DNA from: an uncultured Porphyromonadaceae bacterium
Lineage (GTDB): Bacteria > Bacteroidota > Bacteroidia > Bacteroidales > Muribaculaceae
Assembly (NCBI GenBank): GCA_947649495.1
Contig: CANSRU010000013.1
Span: 1-64,000, forward strand
Reading direction: 5' to 3'
DNA length: 64,000 nt
Shown: positions 6,385 through 42,040 of the stretch, one piece after another
How the letters are laid out: the number at the start of each line of letters is the position of its first letter
Numbering within the stretch: position 1 is the first letter of the stretch
The notes under the pieces: generated by a model
The model's input: only the letters and a program-made list of their open reading frames with translations
Told to the model about the DNA's origin: nothing
The model's database searches: none
Position numbers and translations under genes: made by a program

Positions 6385-7242
6385 ATGACTGTAAAGGAAT
6401 GCTGCGCTGAGGCCACCCGAAAACTACAGACCATCTATCCGGCTTCGGAATCACTATGGATGGTGCGGATAATCTTTGAGCACCTCAAAGGTTACAAACC
6501 GGTAGACCTTGTGATAAAAGCCGACGATGAGCTAAGCGATTTTATAACCGGAAAGGTAGACGCTGTTGTGGAGCGGCTGCTTCGCCACGAACCTATACAA
6601 TACATATTTGGCGAAACCACATTTTACGGCCTACGCCTCGAAGTCACACCCGACACGCTAATCCCACGCCCCGAGACTGAGGAACTTGTCGACATGATAG
6701 TTCGCAATGCCGACAACCGTACCGACCTCGGTGTACTCGACATTTGCACTGGCTCGGGATGCATCGCCATAGCCCTTGCACGCAATCTGAAATTTCCCAA
6801 GGTAGAAGCCATCGATATAAACTCGCCGGCACTTGATGTTGCCCGGCGCAACGCCTCAGCACTCAAGGTTGACATTGACATAAAGAAAGCCGATGCATTG
6901 CATCTGCCGGAAAATGCAAGCCCCGCTTACGACATTATCGTGAGCAATCCTCCCTATATTGCCCTCAGCGAACGTGCAACCATGGATAAGAACGTATTAG
7001 ACTACGAACCCTCAATAGCATTGTTCGTACCTGACAACGACCCACTTCTGTTCTACCGCAACATCTCCCGATTTGCCATTAAGGCACTCCGACCTAATGG
7101 ACGGCTATATTTTGAAATCAACCCTATATATGCCGAAAACCTGCGCGACATGCTTACCGCCGACGGATGGGACAGCGTAGAGATTATTCTCGACATGCAG
7201 CGCAACAAACGTTTCACCTCTGCCATTTCGCCACGATCATGA
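6385..7242 (+). CDS. prmC: Release factor glutamine methyltransferase PrmC
   Basis: S-adenosylmethionine-dependent N5-methylation of the Gln in the GGQ motif of peptide release factors RF1/RF2. The N-terminal helical substrate domain (about residues 1-80) leads to a Rossmann methyltransferase domain with DICTGSGCIAI (119-129) for SAM and NPPY (188-191), the catalytic signature. TLIPRPETEELV (91-102) is the usual conserved PrmC strand. The length is 285 residues. It starts 18 bp after the first carB and its TGA overlaps the ATG of recX (ATGA), so these genes are co-transcribed and translationally coupled. Confidence 0.92.
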   Translation: MTVKECCAEATRKLQTIYPASESLWMVRIIFEHLKGYKPVDLVIKADDELSDFITGKVDAVVERLLRHEPIQYIFGETTFYGLRLEVTPDTLIPRPETEELVDMIVRNADNRTDLGVLDICTGSGCIAIALARNLKFPKVEAIDINSPALDVARRNASALKVDIDIKKADALHLPENASPAYDIIVSNPPYIALSERATMDKNVLDYEPSIALFVPDNDPLLFYRNISRFAIKALRPNGRLYFEINPIYAENLRDMLTADGWDSVEIILDMQRNKRFTSAISPRS

Positions 7243-7727
7243 GGAAAACGGTCTCCCCTGCCGATGCCGTGGAACGGCTTGAACTTTTGTGTGTCCGCAG
7301 CGAACAATGCACATCCGACCTGCGCCGCAAATTGTTCACCTGGGGCATAACGCCATCACAATCCGACACCATATTGAATGGTCTCGAACAACGTGGGTTC
7401 GTAGACGACAGCCGATTTGCACGCGCATACGTACGCGACAAATACAGATTTTCACGATGGGGCCGACAGAAAATCGTGGCCGGACTAATCGCCAAACGCA
7501 TTCCACGCCATATAATCGACTCGGCTCTCTCCGAGATTCAGAACAAAGAATATGCCCTTACAGCGTTCCGCGCCATCGCAGCCAAGTTGCGTACGCTTGA
7601 CACCACGATGCCACGCCATGAACTGCGGGCTAAACTCCTGCGCCATGCTATCGCAAAAGGCTACGAATCGGCATTGATATTTAAAATACTTGACAGCAAC
7701 CGGCTATGGGCACCTTACAGCAATTAA
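7239..7727 (+). CDS. recX: RecX family regulatory protein
   Basis: RecX modulates RecA by binding inside the recombinase filament. The product has 162 residues of repeated three-helix RecX units, with CTSDLRRKLFTWG, RGFVDDSRFARAYVRDK and the GRQKIVAGLIAK block typical of the family. I chose the ATG at 7239 because it overlaps the prmC stop as ATGA and starts close to the conserved region; the frame is open further upstream inside prmC but gives non-family sequence. The 3' end overlaps comF by 22 bp. recA itself is not in the window. Confidence 0.85.
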   Translation: MRKTVSPADAVERLELLCVRSEQCTSDLRRKLFTWGITPSQSDTILNGLEQRGFVDDSRFARAYVRDKYRFSRWGRQKIVAGLIAKRIPRHIIDSALSEIQNKEYALTAFRAIAAKLRTLDTTMPRHELRAKLLRHAIAKGYESALIFKILDSNRLWAPYSN

Positions 7728-8419
7728 AACTCTGGTACAAAGACCTAATATCTGTAATATATCCCGCGCTTTGCGAAGTATGCGACAGCACACTCGTGCA
7801 TGGTGAGGAAGCTATATGCCTGGATTGTCTGATGAACCTTCCGCGCTGTAACATCCACAATGACCCATTCAACACCATGCACCAACGGCTCATGGGCCAT
7901 GCACCCATCGAGCGTGCCGCAGCATATTTCCATTACTATCGGGAGAGCAAATACACACGACTCATTCACGCCGCCAAGTATTCAGGCCGACCCCGAATTG
8001 CCGAATTGCTGGCCAACCGGTTTGCCTCCGAAATATCAGGAGATAGATTTTTTGATGGCATAGACCTTATAATACCTGTACCACTCCACAAAACAAAGAT
8101 AATGAAACGCGGTTACAACCAAAGCTTCCACATAGCACTTGGATTGAGCCGGGCCACAGGTATAGGCATAGGCGACAATCTTATAGCGACACGCTCCCAC
8201 ACCACACAGACAAAGCACAATTCATACACCCGGTGGCTGAATTCCCAAAACATATATGAAGTGCAGGCTCCTCACACACTGACCGGCAAACATATCCTCA
8301 TTGTTGACGATGTACTCACCACAGGCGCCACATTGCTGGCATGCTGCGAGGCCATACACAAGGCCGAACCATCAGCCAAAATAAGTGTACTCACATTAGC
8401 ACTTACACAACTGCAATAA
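7706..8419 (+). CDS. comF: ComF/GntX family phosphoribosyltransferase-like protein
   Basis: Type I phosphoribosyltransferase-fold protein related to ComF, which in naturally competent bacteria assists uptake of transforming DNA; its role in Bacteroidales is unknown. The 237-residue protein starts with a four-cysteine zinc ribbon (C23, C26, C38, C41). It ends with the PRPP-binding loop ILIVDDVLTTGATL (197-210) typical of the PRTase fold. IPVPLHKTKIMKRGYNQS is the conserved ComF block. It overlaps recX by 22 bp and is the last gene before the second carB, which has its own promoter. Confidence 0.88.
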   Translation: MGTLQQLKLWYKDLISVIYPALCEVCDSTLVHGEEAICLDCLMNLPRCNIHNDPFNTMHQRLMGHAPIERAAAYFHYYRESKYTRLIHAAKYSGRPRIAELLANRFASEISGDRFFDGIDLIIPVPLHKTKIMKRGYNQSFHIALGLSRATGIGIGDNLIATRSHTTQTKHNSYTRWLNSQNIYEVQAPHTLTGKHILIVDDVLTTGATLLACCEAIHKAEPSAKISVLTLALTQLQ

Positions 8420-8422
8420 CAA

Positions 8423-8453
8423 TTGAAAGTTACCTCAACTTTTTGTAACTTTG
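8423..8453 (+). promoter_or_regulatory. Promoter of the second carB
   Basis: TTG (8423-8425), 20 bp, TAACTTTG (8446-8453). The leader is about 20 nt to the ATG at 8479. It shows that the second carB can be expressed independently of the carA operon. Confidence 0.8.
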
Positions 8454-8478
8454 CACCAAATTATAATCCATCACACCA

Positions 8479-11400
8479 ATGATAAAAAAGGTTCTGCTGC
8501 TCGGCTCAGGAGCATTGAAAATCGGTCAGGCCGGAGAGTTTGACTATTCAGGCTCACAAGCCCTCAAAGCCATGCGCGAAGAGGGTATCTCAACCGTGTT
8601 AATCAACCCCAACATCGCCACGATCCAAACTTCGGAAGGCGTGGCCGACAAAGTTTACTTCCTACCTATCACGCCTCACTTTGTGGAGGAGGTGATAAAG
8701 AAGGAACGTCCCGACGGCATTCTGCTCGCTTTCGGCGGACAGACCGCGCTGAATTGCGGCACCGAACTTTATCTTAACGGCACACTCGAACGCTACGGTG
8801 TAAAAGTGTTAGGCACTTCTGTCGAAGCCATTATGATTACCGAGGACCGCGACCTCTTCGTTAAGAAACTTAACGAGATTGACGCCAAAACTCCTGTATC
8901 CCAGGCTGTGGAGAACCTCGACGATGCCGTTGCTGTGGCACACCGCATCGGCTACCCCGTGATGGTTCGCTCCGCCTACGCCCTCGGTGGCCTTGGCTCC
9001 GGAATATGCAACAACGATGAAGAATTCATAAAACACTGCGAAAGCGCACTCGCCTACTCCACACAGATTCTCGTGGAAGAGTCGCTCAAAGGCTGGAAAG
9101 AGATAGAATTTGAGGTGATACGCGACGCCAACGACCATTGCTTCACAGTGGTTCCGATGGAAAATTTCGACCCGCTCGGCATACACACCGGCGAATCAAT
9201 CGTTGTTGCCCCCATCGTATCCCTCACCCCCGAGCAGATCAAGATGCTTGAGGAGATAGCTATAAAGGTAGTGCGTCATATAGGCATAGTCGGAGAGTGC
9301 AACATCCAGTATGCATTCAACGCCGAAACCAACGACTACCGTATAATCGAAATAAACGCACGCCTGAGCCGCTCATCAGCCCTCGCATCCAAAGCATCCG
9401 GCTATCCCTTGGCTTTCGTTGCGGCAAAACTCGCATTGGGATACACTCTTGACCAGATTGGCGAGATGGGAACCCCCAATTCGGCCTATGTAGCACCGAG
9501 CGTCGACTACATGATAGTCAAGATACCCCGCTGGGACCTCACGAAATTTGTTGGTGTGGACCGCGAGATAGGCTCCTCGATGAAATCTGTAGGCGAGATA
9601 ATGTCTATCGGAAAATCTTTTGAGGAGATTATACAGAAAGGCCTCCGCATGATTGGCCAGGGAATGCACGGATTCGTAGGAAACACCGACATACGCTTCG
9701 ACAATCTGGAACACGCGCTCTCCAACCCCACCGACCTGCGCATATTTGCCATCGCCCAGGCTCTTGAAGAGGGCTATTCAATAGACCGCATAGTAGAGCT
9801 TACGAAGATTGACCGTTGGTTTATCCAGCGCCTTGACAATATAGTGAAATATGCCGGTCTGCTTAAAAAATTCAACAAGATAGAAGATCTCGACAAAGAG
9901 ACCTTACACGAAGCCAAACGCCTTGGCTTCTCCGACTTCCAGATTGCACGCCTTGTTGAAAATCCCGAAGGAAATATGGAACCGGAGATACTTCGCGTAC
10001 GCGCTCATCGCAAGAGTCTCGAGATTCTCCCCAAAGTACGTCGCATAAACACTGTTGCATCAGAATATCCCGAACTCACCAACTACCTTTATGTAACATA
10101 CGGAGCCGAGGAGAACGCTATCCCCTACGACTTCAACGCCGGAAACAACATTGTGGTACTCGGTTCCGGAGCATACCGCATCGGTAGCTCGGTGGAATTC
10201 GACTGGTGTTCGGTCAATGCTGCAAACACCTGCCGCAAGCTCGGTTACAAATCGATAATGATCAACTACAATCCGGAGACAGTATCAACCGACTACGATA
10301 TGTGCGACCGCCTCTATTTCGACGAGCTGTCGTTCGAACGCGTAATGGATATAATCGATCTGGAAGCGCCAAGAGGTGTGATTGTAAGTGTCGGTGGACA
10401 GATACCCAACAATCTGGCCATGAAACTTCACCGGCGCCATGTGCCCATACTCGGCACATCACCCATATCCATTGACAGAGCTGAAAACCGCCATAAATTC
10501 TCGGCAATGCTCGACAACCTCGGCATAGACCAGCCGCGGTGGAAGGAGCTCACCACAACCGATGAGATAGACGACTTTGTTTCAGAAGTAGGCTTCCCGG
10601 TGCTTATCCGTCCGAGCTACGTACTGTCAGGAGCCGCCATGAACGTATGCTACGATTACGACCAGATGCACCGCTTCCTCGGTCAGGCAGCGAAAGTGTC
10701 AAAAGAATATCCGGTGGTGGTATCCGAATTCCTCCAGAATGCCAAAGAGATTGAATTTGACGCAGTGGCACGCAATGGCAAAATTGTTGAATACGCCATA
10801 TCCGAGCATATCGAATTTGCCGGTGTACACTCAGGCGACGCAACACTTGTGTTCCCCGCACAAAAAATATACATGGCCACCGCCCGGCGCATAAAGCGCA
10901 TAAGCGCCCGCATTGCCAAGGAGCTTAACATCTCCGGTCCTTTCAACATCCAATATCTTGCCAAAGACAACGATGTGAAAGTTATTGAATGTAATCTCCG
11001 CGCATCACGCTCATTCCCATTCGTAAGTAAGGTACTGAAGAAGAACTTCATTGAGACAGCCACACGCATTATGCTCGGCGAGCAGATCGAGCCTATCGAC
11101 ACTTCTACATTCGACATAGACTACATCGGCATCAAAGCATCTCAATTCTCATTCGCCCGCCTGCACAAAGCCGACCCGGTACTTGGAGTCGACATGTCGT
11201 CAACAGGTGAGGTAGGATGCCTTGGCCGCGATTTCGACGAAGCTCTGCTCAACGCCATGATTTCCGTAGGACATCATGTGCCGCAGAAAGCTGTGCTCGT
11301 AAGTTCAGGCGATGTACGCGGCAAAGTGGACATGCTCGATGCCTGCCACATGCTTTCCGACCACGGTTACAAAATCTATGCCACCGAAGGAACAGCCCGT

Positions 11401-40776: not shown

Positions 40777-40809
40777 TTTGGAATAAACAAAAATAAAACA
40801 TTATCTTTG
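40777..40809 (+). promoter_or_regulatory. Promoter of the structured RNA candidate
   Basis: TTTG (40777-40780), 21 bp, TATCTTTG (40802-40809). Transcription should begin at about 40815; no ORF starts for 300 bp. Confidence 0.8.
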
Positions 40810-40814
40810 CACAA

Positions 40815-41072
40815 GATTACACCGGTTGCAATCCTTGGGCTGATATAATTTTACGCAAAAACTTCCCCTTTTAGACTAAGGCTAAGGCAACATCAAGAAG
40901 CAACTGTCGCGACGACACGCACCTATTGAAATGGTGTAACGATGTAAGTATGATATATAATCTCTACACTTAGAAATTGCTGTAAGACAACTTTCTATTT
41001 ATAGAAATTAAAAACATGCCTTTTGGCTTTAGTCCGATGCCCTCTGATAGAAGAGAGCCGCGGGCTTTTTTT
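40815..41072 (+). ncRNA. Candidate structured non-coding RNA (about 258 nt)
   Basis: A transcript from the consensus promoter at 40777-40809 would run to a GC-rich hairpin plus T-run ending at 41072, with no sensible ORF. A long-range helix closes an inner domain: GACTAAGGC (40874-40882) pairs with GCTTTAGTC (41026-41034), and AAGGCA (40884-40889) with TGCCTT (41017-41022), 15 pairs with one wobble and a small internal loop. Inside, TAGAAA/TTTCTA and TTCTA/TAGAA hairpins are possible. The 5' part (40824-40860) contains a motif series repeated at 34037-34076. I see no signature of RNase P RNA, tmRNA, SRP RNA or a known riboswitch. It could be a trans-acting RNA or a leader controlling the BASS-type transporter gene at 41120. 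Confidence 0.55.
41039..41072 (+). terminator. Terminator of the RNA candidate
   Basis: GCCC (41039-41042) pairs with GGGC (41062-41065), with an inner CTCT/AGAG pairing, followed directly by a run of seven T's. The asymmetric inner loop makes it a less regular hairpin. Confidence 0.6.
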
Positions 41073-41084
41073 ATATATTTTTTG

Positions 41085-41092
41085 TAATTTTG
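41085..41092 (+). promoter_or_regulatory. Minus-7 element of the BASS transporter gene
   Basis: TAATTTTG, 27 bp before the ATG at 41120 and directly behind the RNA terminator. No minus-33 box at the right distance. Confidence 0.5.
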
Positions 41093-41119
41093 CAGCACCA
41101 ATACCAAAATTCAAGCTCA

Positions 41120-42040
41120 ATGAAAGCCTCATATCTGCGCCAGCGGCTCAAACCGTGGATACTGCCCATGGCCATGGCGTGCGGCCTTGTGGCACACAAC
41201 CACATAGGCCATCTGTCATTCCTGACACCGTGGCTCATATTCCTGATGCTGTTCATAACATTCTGCCGCATCAACCCCCGCGAATTCCACATCACCCCAC
41301 TGTCGGGATGGCTCATAGTCACACAGATCGCCGGTGCCATATTGGCTTACGGCATCATCAGGCCGTTCAGCGAGGATGTGGCTCAAGGCGTATTCATCTG
41401 CATCTTCTGCCCCACAGCCACCGCAGCCCCGGTCATCACCGGCATGCTGGGAGGCAGCGTGCCGCGTCTTGTAACCTACTCATTGATAAGCAACGTCACC
41501 GTGGCACTGCTTGCCCCTGTGCTTTTCGCATGGATGGGTAGCGCCGACATCGACCTCGCCGCCACCACCCTGTCGATAGCCGTCCATGTAGGACCGCTCA
41601 TCATCACGCCATTACTGCTCGCCCTCATCATGCGCAGGCTCACCCCCACCCTGCATCGCCAGATAGGCCAGCGACAGGATATCACATTCTATGTATGGGC
41701 ACTTTCCCTCTTCATAGTCGTAGGTAAATCCGTAAGCTTCATAATGGACGAACCCGCATCGAAGATACCCGAGATTATCGTGATAGCCATCGGTGCAGGA
41801 GCCGCATGCATTCTCCAGTTTATAATCGGGCGACGCGTCGGAGCGCGATACGGCGACCGCGTGGCAGGCGCCCAGGGCCTCGGGCAGAAAAACACTGTGC
41901 TCGCGATATGGATGGCACTCACATACCTCAACCCCATCTCATCGGTAGGCCCCGCAGCCTATGTCGCATGGCAAAACACTATCAACTCCATGCAGATTTA
42001 TCTCAAGCAGCGCAAAGAATCCGCCACACGAAAACAATAA
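41120..42040 (+). CDS. BASS-family (bile acid:sodium symporter-like) transporter
   Basis: Integral membrane protein of 306 residues with nine to ten helices. It contains CPTATAAPVITGMLGG and GLGQKNTVLAIWMALTYLNP, which resemble the crossing-helix sodium sites of the BASS/SBF fold. Members transport bile acids, keto acids, pantoate and other organic anions; for a gut organism a bile-related role is tempting but unproven. I set the start at the ATG 41120, since the extension to 41090 begins with a TTG inside the minus-7 box. A Crp/Fnr regulator follows after 50 bp. Confidence 0.78.
   Translation: MKASYLRQRLKPWILPMAMACGLVAHNHIGHLSFLTPWLIFLMLFITFCRINPREFHITPLSGWLIVTQIAGAILAYGIIRPFSEDVAQGVFICIFCPTATAAPVITGMLGGSVPRLVTYSLISNVTVALLAPVLFAWMGSADIDLAATTLSIAVHVGPLIITPLLLALIMRRLTPTLHRQIGQRQDITFYVWALSLFIVVGKSVSFIMDEPASKIPEIIVIAIGAGAACILQFIIGRRVGARYGDRVAGAQGLGQKNTVLAIWMALTYLNPISSVGPAAYVAWQNTINSMQIYLKQRKESATRKQ

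Follow-up and report, generated by a model that had tools for sequence, protein, structure and literature searches.

A stand-alone RNA family of the Muribaculaceae with a conserved internal core and candidate targets among alpha-glucan genes

Introduction

GibS of Bacteroides thetaiotaomicron is, according to two reports (PMC7366714, PMC11697453), a 145-nt RNA that carries its seed in the 5' portion, has the promoter motif PM2, and binds two mRNAs by pairing at their start regions; one of the two encodes a GH13 glucan-branching enzyme. FopS, in the second of these (PMC11697453), is a stand-alone family of the Bacteroidetes whose members, 65–70 nt long and present in many copies, comprise a single-stranded 5' end and a terminator, are transcribed mostly from sigma-ABfr promoters, and have their targets at translation starts in PULs. 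6S RNA (Bacteroidales-1, RF01693) is likewise a stand-alone structured RNA of the Bacteroidales.

The RNA described here is predicted, together with its promoter, at 40777–41072 of the window—the whole 64,000-nucleotide stretch of DNA that was analysed—and in its putative working it is nearest to GibS and FopS, although its build differs. Like GibS it is a stand-alone intergenic RNA, and an alpha-glucan target would be common to both; compared by description only, it differs from GibS in its length of ~260 nt, its internal core and its long-range pairing. GibS and FopS are, in those same descriptions, shorter RNAs with a single-stranded 5' seed, unlike this one. A search of the mostly open-access literature gave, among the titles listed, no paper on this RNA or on any Muribaculaceae RNA. 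The family offers a ready covariance model, one of its carriers, Duncaniella muris DSM 103720, is in culture, and its two named candidate targets lie in storage-polysaccharide use.

The transcription unit

The principal features, by position in the window, are these:
40777–40809, + strand: promoter of Bacteroidetes type, by sequence; TTTG at 40777–40780, 21 nt, then TATCTTTG at 40802–40809
40814–41072, + strand: the RNA; 5' end placed ~5 nt past the TTTG of the promoter, 3' end at the T-run of the terminator
40945–40966, + strand: conserved core, UAAGUAUGAUAUAUAAUCUCUA in the window, which has a 2-nt AU insertion relative to the family sequence UAAGUAUGAUAUAAUCUCUA
41018–41035, + strand: 3' box GCCUUUUGGCUUUAGUCC; GCC-UUUU-GGC, then the 3' strand of helix P3, its GUCC serving also as base of the terminator
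41031–41072, + strand: intrinsic terminator; hairpin at 41031–41066, then T7 at 41066–41072
41085–41092, + strand: -7-like element TAATTTTG, by sequence; 3' of the terminator and outside the RNA, taken as the -7 element of the transporter gene's own promoter

The elements at 40777–40809 belong to the Bacteroidetes TTTG/TAnnTTTG promoter type. The preliminary description had placed a promoter here, and the homologs of the RNA agree: TAnnTTTG lies 86–260 nt 5' of the core in 98 of 99 (those of the 103 distinct members that have at least 200 nt of upstream sequence), versus 8.8% of mononucleotide shuffles. Promoter and terminator together imply an RNA of ~260 nt. The hairpin and seven T's said to end it are indeed present, and a T-run of at least five follows the start of the core by 75–210 nt in 61 of the 63 contigs that hold the exact 20-mer, the exceptions (L072 and L095) both being contigs that end there. 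The upper stem of the terminator is paired in 0.98 of cells versus a shuffled maximum of 0.82, with 59 double-change cells in the 72-member alignment. L050 and L057 have an atypical 3' part.

The ~260 bp were also said to lack a coding frame, and this holds: no frame is conserved in the interval, the homologs are set apart by indels of lengths not divisible by three, and the single long forward ORF that enters it, 41023–41541, overlaps the transporter gene in a different frame. A dual-function RNA encoding a small peptide is, in our judgment, very improbable. AUGCCUUUUGGCUUUAGUCC can be read as a start codon with a short frame, and AUG-AUA-UAA occurs within the family core, but many members are without that AUG and one-base indels shift the frame. 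The AUG-AUA-UAA minigene itself is broken by the AU insertion of the window and again in the UAAGUAAG members.

Folded on its own, the window RNA does not stand out (z -1.72, with 10 of 200 shuffles folding just as well), and it is on account of its homologs, not this fold, that we judge it to be real. That it represents a real, stand-alone and undescribed family we hold with high confidence.

Known RNA families do not account for it. Rfam 15 at gathering score returned nothing across the whole window; up to E 10 the sole matches in the interval were Spot 42, EF0408_EF0409 and MEG8_1, all far under their gathering scores and rejected. RNase P RNA, tmRNA and SRP RNA had been dismissed earlier by inspection, rightly so, for the covariance models of these RNAs are unmatched at the locus and find their genuine copies elsewhere in the same genome: RNase P RNA (RF00010) at C3:44992-45376, tmRNA (RF00023) at C11:3780-4181 and SRP RNA (RF00169) at C9:74846-74945. 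6S RNA (RF01693) also differs from the new RNA in finding no match at the locus; its copy is at C8:177-365. A further Rfam search, covering ten homolog loci with an E limit of 0.5, left the RNA stretches unmatched, the matches elsewhere in those loci being one tRNA and one FopS. FopS (RF04319) is thus absent both from the interval matches up to E 10 and from the ten homolog RNAs. The one copy found, at L064:894-961 on the minus strand, is ~5 kb from a member of the new family and shows that FopS reaches the Muribaculaceae; it has a CGUCGUGAUGACG hairpin that resembles one in the new RNA. A role as sponge for FopS was considered and dropped, the two forming a long partial duplex only, with no clear seed.

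Family and host range

Muribaculaceae are prominent commensals of the mouse gut. A DNA search of 101 relatives, the window's genome included, matched 26 genomes, and roughly a dozen of these matches are extended homologs. What the homologs have in common is the 20-mer UAAGUAUGAUAUAAUCUCUA and the 3' box. The exact 20-mer is present in 63 genome contigs, among them that of the isolate Duncaniella muris DSM 103720 (L075, with the core at 1495–1514 on the minus strand); their titles are Muribaculaceae, Duncaniella, Porphyromonadaceae, Bacteroides or Bacteroidales, with one Alloprevotella. Four of the 63 are titled Clostridiales, Clostridia, Paenibacillus and Staphylococcus (L050, L056, L078, L098) and are probably mislabelled or chimeric bins; on L056 the RNA sits at the extreme start of the contig. 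It is from such titles and from Duncaniella muris that we take the host family to be the Muribaculaceae.

A covariance model, R1, was built on the 3' half of the RNA from members gathered almost wholly through the exact core, and because its training set was chosen in this way, divergent members may escape it. It scores the 3' 133 nt of the window copy, which is itself in the training alignment, at 107.1 bits. Of 197 Muribaculaceae genomes with a completeness of 90% or more, R1 matches 76, spread over 13 of 26 genera, and the RNA is single-copy in 75 of those 76. In the other 121 it was not detected, and a second search of 20 of these negatives, with relaxed filters and a limit of E 1, again gave nothing, which argues against missed matches as the source of the patchiness. 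Beyond the family, with stricter filters that lose weak matches, six of 392 Bacteroidales genomes match, all six of them Muribaculaceae, and among 395 genomes from across the phylum the window's own is the sole match. The family is therefore narrow and patchy. Of the 14 near-complete genomes in the genus to which the window belongs, 5 have the RNA.

From 128 model matches, L072 was set aside as a fragment, and removal of duplicates reduced the remaining 127 to the 103 members on which the counts below are based; the copy in G045 (L132) and further loci from genomes already listed lie outside those searches. A mobile origin was looked for and is ruled against: the exact 22-mer core occurs in none of the IMG/VR contigs, and plasmid and phage searches with the window RNA gave no match.

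Genomic neighbours

The preliminary description had left a choice between a new small RNA and a cis leader for a BASS-type transporter whose gene begins at 41120. The former stands; the latter falls, for the neighbours vary and the orientation flips. The transporter's identity is itself weak, since its Pfam SBF match (E 1.3e-4, 22.1 bits) is under the cut-off of 24.3.

The case for a leader is that the RNA lies directly upstream of the transporter gene, on the same strand, in the window's genome (G000) and in G017. It adjoins this gene in one other genome only, G031 of the same genus, where it is directed away from it, on the other strand; in G027 it is 1.1 kb off. Transporter homologs occur in 31 of 34 genomes of the genus, and in 14 of the 14 near-complete genomes—distant in some, at 35–39% identity—nine of which are without an RNA match. 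A CRP gene comes after the closer homologs, and this transporter-CRP pair is also present where the genus has no RNA. A -7 element for the transporter had been noted 3' of the terminator, and TAATTTTG is there, at 41085–41092; an element resembling it precedes the same gene on L184, from G015, where the RNA is absent. Across the family, the downstream gene is on the opposite strand at 37 of 93 loci, the genes adjoining the RNA are mostly unrelated among loci, with some sharing within lineages, and no codirectional downstream gene of the kind that a leader would serve is conserved. The orientation in G031, the 37 opposed loci and the genomes with transporter and no RNA together refute a cis leader as the general function, and we give next to no credence to a leader or riboswitch for the gene at 41120. 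Having its own promoter and terminator, no ORF, and independence of its neighbours, the RNA looks instead like a trans-encoded small RNA.

The flipped RNA in G031 prompted a search for an invertible element, and no common flanking inverted repeats were found in four loci. G015 offers a natural empty site: at L184:2400-2579, the kinase and transporter genes diverge across a short gap that holds no RNA.

Secondary structure

The following elements were recognized in addition to the terminator:
40817–40939, + strand: P1, closing helix of the 5' domain; UUACACCG (40817–40824) with UGGUGUAA (40932–40939)
40825–40891, + strand: P1b; GUUGC (40825–40829) with GCAAC (40887–40891)
40833–40881, + strand: P2, local hairpin; CCUUGG (40833–40838) with CUAAGG (40876–40881), its loop carrying UUUUACGCA (40849–40857)
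40905–40917, + strand: small hairpin, UGUCG-CGA-CGACA
40874–41034, + strand: P3, long-range helix; 40874–40889 with 41017–41034, mutually exclusive with P2
40971–40997, + strand: P4, hairpin 3' of the core, variable in the family by eye

Covariation was assessed in a plain MAFFT alignment from which near-duplicates had been removed (84 members reduced to 72). P1, P1b and the terminator pair better than in any of 200 shuffles. P1 closes the 5' domain directly 5' of the core, as ACACC:GGUGU in many members and as different stems in other lineages; ACACC:GGUGU is paired in 0.72 of cells versus a shuffled maximum of 0.67, with 39 double-change cells, and for P1b the figures are 0.68 versus 0.62. 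The small hairpin reaches 0.62 versus 0.58, with 18 double-change cells, and one slid register pairs more cells still (0.76); its loop, by eye, is GUGA or GCGA in many members. P2 has matched variants, such as GCCUCG:CGAGGC in L049, and its pairing of 0.80 equals the shuffled maximum (80%). The GAAUCAC sequence and the terminator loop UG..GAA are further conserved parts of the RNA.

P3 joins GGACUAAG of the 5' domain to CUUUAGUCC. The helix had been drawn between 40874–40889 and 41017–41034, and it is essentially as drawn: with its first ten pairs forced, 11 bp form between 40874–40884 and 41024–41034 and 5 bp between 40885–40889 and 41017–41021, 16 pairs in all with a 2-nt bulge. Compensatory changes of the kind proposed as a check on it are present, yet modest. 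P3 is paired in 81% of cells in the 72 members (plain MAFFT), no better than the shuffled maximum, because most members have one common sequence. It shows 8 double-change cells versus 2 to 17 in slid registers, the pairing of which is 9–65%. Matched variants, with register allowed for, include GAUCUAAGC/GCUUAGGUC, GGACC/GGUCC, GGACUUAG/UUAAGUCC and GACUCU/AGAGUC. Sorted by type of 3' box (the pattern was unrecognized in 6 of 103 members), the best P3 partner is that of the member's own type in 15 of 19 C, 47 of 64 A, 2 of 4 K and 0 of 10 D members; two of the 64 A members are without the 5' part. L051 and L056 have no 5' part and carry placeholder energies in this analysis. From these sequence comparisons, P3 appears moderately supported in types A, C and K; it is absent in type D (10 of 103 members), and several type A members, too, are without a good P3. 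Swapping arms between species, as a test of P1 and P3, is blunted because related species have stems in common.

CUAAGG, the strand that partners the upstream CCUUGG or CCUUAG in P2, is also a strand of P3. In the window, the unconstrained fold is predicted at -58.5 kcal/mol, with this strand paired otherwise than in P3, versus -56.3 kcal/mol with P3 forced; forcing P3 costs 41 of 80 members no more than 3 kcal/mol relative to their minimum, and the minimum fold of 16 members contains P3 already. Since P2 and P3 share a strand and have similar modeled energies, a bistable RNA is plausible. Whether the exchange is the whole point of the molecule is another matter. It might control the RNA's own termination, as an attenuator without a fixed downstream gene, or the maturation of its 3' end; that P2 and P3 use one strand, that P3 competes with the terminator for its GUCC base, and that the forced energies lie so close in half the members all suit such a role. 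We think it unlikely, nevertheless, as there is no common downstream gene (37 of 93 being opposed), and type D and several type A members have no good P3 to exchange.

The conserved core

The 20-mer UAAGUAUGAUAUAAUCUCUA is exact in 64 of the 103 members, a count that overstates the constancy of the core, since many members were gathered by the exact 20-mer; R1 was trained on it and does not require it. A further 20 members have a single substitution: seven read UAAGUAAG, six end in CUCUG, three end in CUCAA, two read GAUAUGAUC, one reads CAAGUAUG and one UCACUA. The AU insertion at 40950–40959 (GAUAUAUAAUC) is peculiar to the window among the 103. AAGUAUGAUAUA, at 40946–40957, is unpaired in both predicted folds of the window RNA, and the nucleotides that precede it are partly paired; averaged across 80 members, the core is unpaired with a probability of 0.50, slightly above the 0.43 of the whole RNA.

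Candidate targets

Searching 20 genomes for the core, on either strand and with up to three mismatches, gave 22 sites outside the RNA itself, versus 12 for a reversed control pattern. Three of the 22 lie antisense at alpha-glucan genes, in three genera, the proteins being confirmed by Pfam:
G163: antisense core complement directly 5' of the malQ start
G036: antisense core complement in the pulA leader
G043: antisense core complement at the end of glgA, 5' of glgP
The rest are mixed and on either strand, and include, by eye, a hydrolase, a CotH-like protein, a SusC-like receptor, htpG and DNA primase. Because the alpha-glucan grouping of 3 of 22 sites is post hoc, checks were then made of genes already named.

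The first was the pulA leader of G043, which diverges from glgA and was chosen since pulA had arisen in G036. It holds TAGAGAATTTATATCTACTTACA, predicted to pair at -21.4 kcal/mol with a bulge or internal loop, an energy that the family core reaches at 0 of 945 start regions in the control genome (the window's own, about half covered). The pulA sites of the two genera are at differing distances, -115 and -48. On L257, where pulA diverges from a glgA-glgP pair, core complements are found both in the pulA leader and at the glgA/glgP junction.

The second was the window's own genome. malQ, pulA, glgA and glgP were sought in 68% of it; malQ alone has a close ortholog there (60% identical, on L326), pulA, glgA and glgP being outside that 68%. 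This malQ carries CATACTTACATC at -14 to -3, and G163 malQ has CATACTTA at about the same position. The window site defines a putative seed:
40941–40952, + strand: proposed seed GAUGUAAGUAUG, perfect 12-nt complement of the start region of the genome's own malQ

Among 1330 start regions in the 68% of the genome, none has a perfect match to the core region longer than CATACTTACATC, and one other equals it at 12 nt, at a lectin-domain protein gene on L265. The proposed seed has an unpaired probability of 0.57 versus 0.46 for the rest of the RNA; 40946–40952 is unpaired in both folds, and 40943–40945 (minimum fold) or 40941–40945 (P3 fold) is paired. At -13.0 kcal/mol, the malQ site is weaker than the 14 best of 950 start regions. 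With shuffled seeds, a perfect match of at least 11 turns up somewhere among the 1330 start regions in 64 of 150 cases, and so the malQ case rests on the gene having been named beforehand.

No target gene recurs at up to three mismatches among the 20 genomes, so that long complementarity is not retained between sister species. In the window's genome, the family core at up to three mismatches finds, besides itself, C3:86204 and C4:63556, both within coding sequences and neither an alpha-glucan gene. When 950 start regions from about half of the genome were ranked by energy, none made a convincing target, the top standing at -21.9 versus -20.4 kcal/mol for the best of six shuffled seeds.

Two genera nevertheless have complementarity to the core, in whole or part, at the malQ start codon, and two others have it in the pulA leader; this suggests a trans-acting RNA that bears on alpha-glucan genes. 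The reading that we favour, tentatively and at somewhat less than an even chance, is drawn from these sequence matches. In it the free-standing RNA of ~260 nt would act in trans: its core, with AAGUAUGAUAUA predicted unpaired, would pair with start regions in a few mRNAs. Foremost among the candidates are malQ (4-alpha-glucanotransferase), bound at the start codon, and pulA (pullulanase), bound in the leader. Translation would thereby be blocked, an effect reported for GibS in Bacteroides, and the core would be held or exposed by the 5' domain together with the P2/P3 switch.

Replacement of the core

Nine of the 103 members have other sequence in place of the core, and seven of the nine belong to one genus, g13 (L143, L146, L157, L166, L173, L174 and L177). 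These seven have in common a new, conserved 5' start, AAUAGAGAC, and a 3' sequence that is nearly unchanged. Their replacement cores are lineage-specific, and several, by eye, are hairpins.

The core might, alternatively, be a protein binding site in a stand-alone RNA that serves in an RNA-protein particle or as a decoy for a protein, and mRNA pairing would then play no part. A 20-mer that changes little while the surrounding helices vary freely would suit a sequence-reading protein as well as it suits a seed; GAAUCAC and the terminator loop UG..GAA are conserved likewise, and no long complementary target recurs in the 20 genomes. We are inclined to doubt it all the same, for it would make the malQ and pulA sites coincidence, and a core that is replaced while the scaffold is kept, as in g13, would be odd for a fixed protein site.

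If, as in the pairing mechanism that we favour, the core is a seed, the replaced core of g13 is a natural experiment in small-RNA target change. A broader construction can be put on this: a riboregulator restricted to a single family of gut bacteria, with two competing folds in its scaffold and an exchangeable recognition core of ~20 nt, controlling the alpha-glucan pathway (malQ, pulA and perhaps glgP), and in g13 swapped at the core on a scaffold that is nearly the same, as a natural modular platform for retargeting. Taken whole, this is speculative, and we would sooner bet against it than for it. In one g13 carrier (G123), two copies of the RNA lie on one strand, 2.4 kb apart (L143:6817-9363), the second with a replaced core, and between them is a 601-aa ORF (7054–8859) that by eye is transposase-like.
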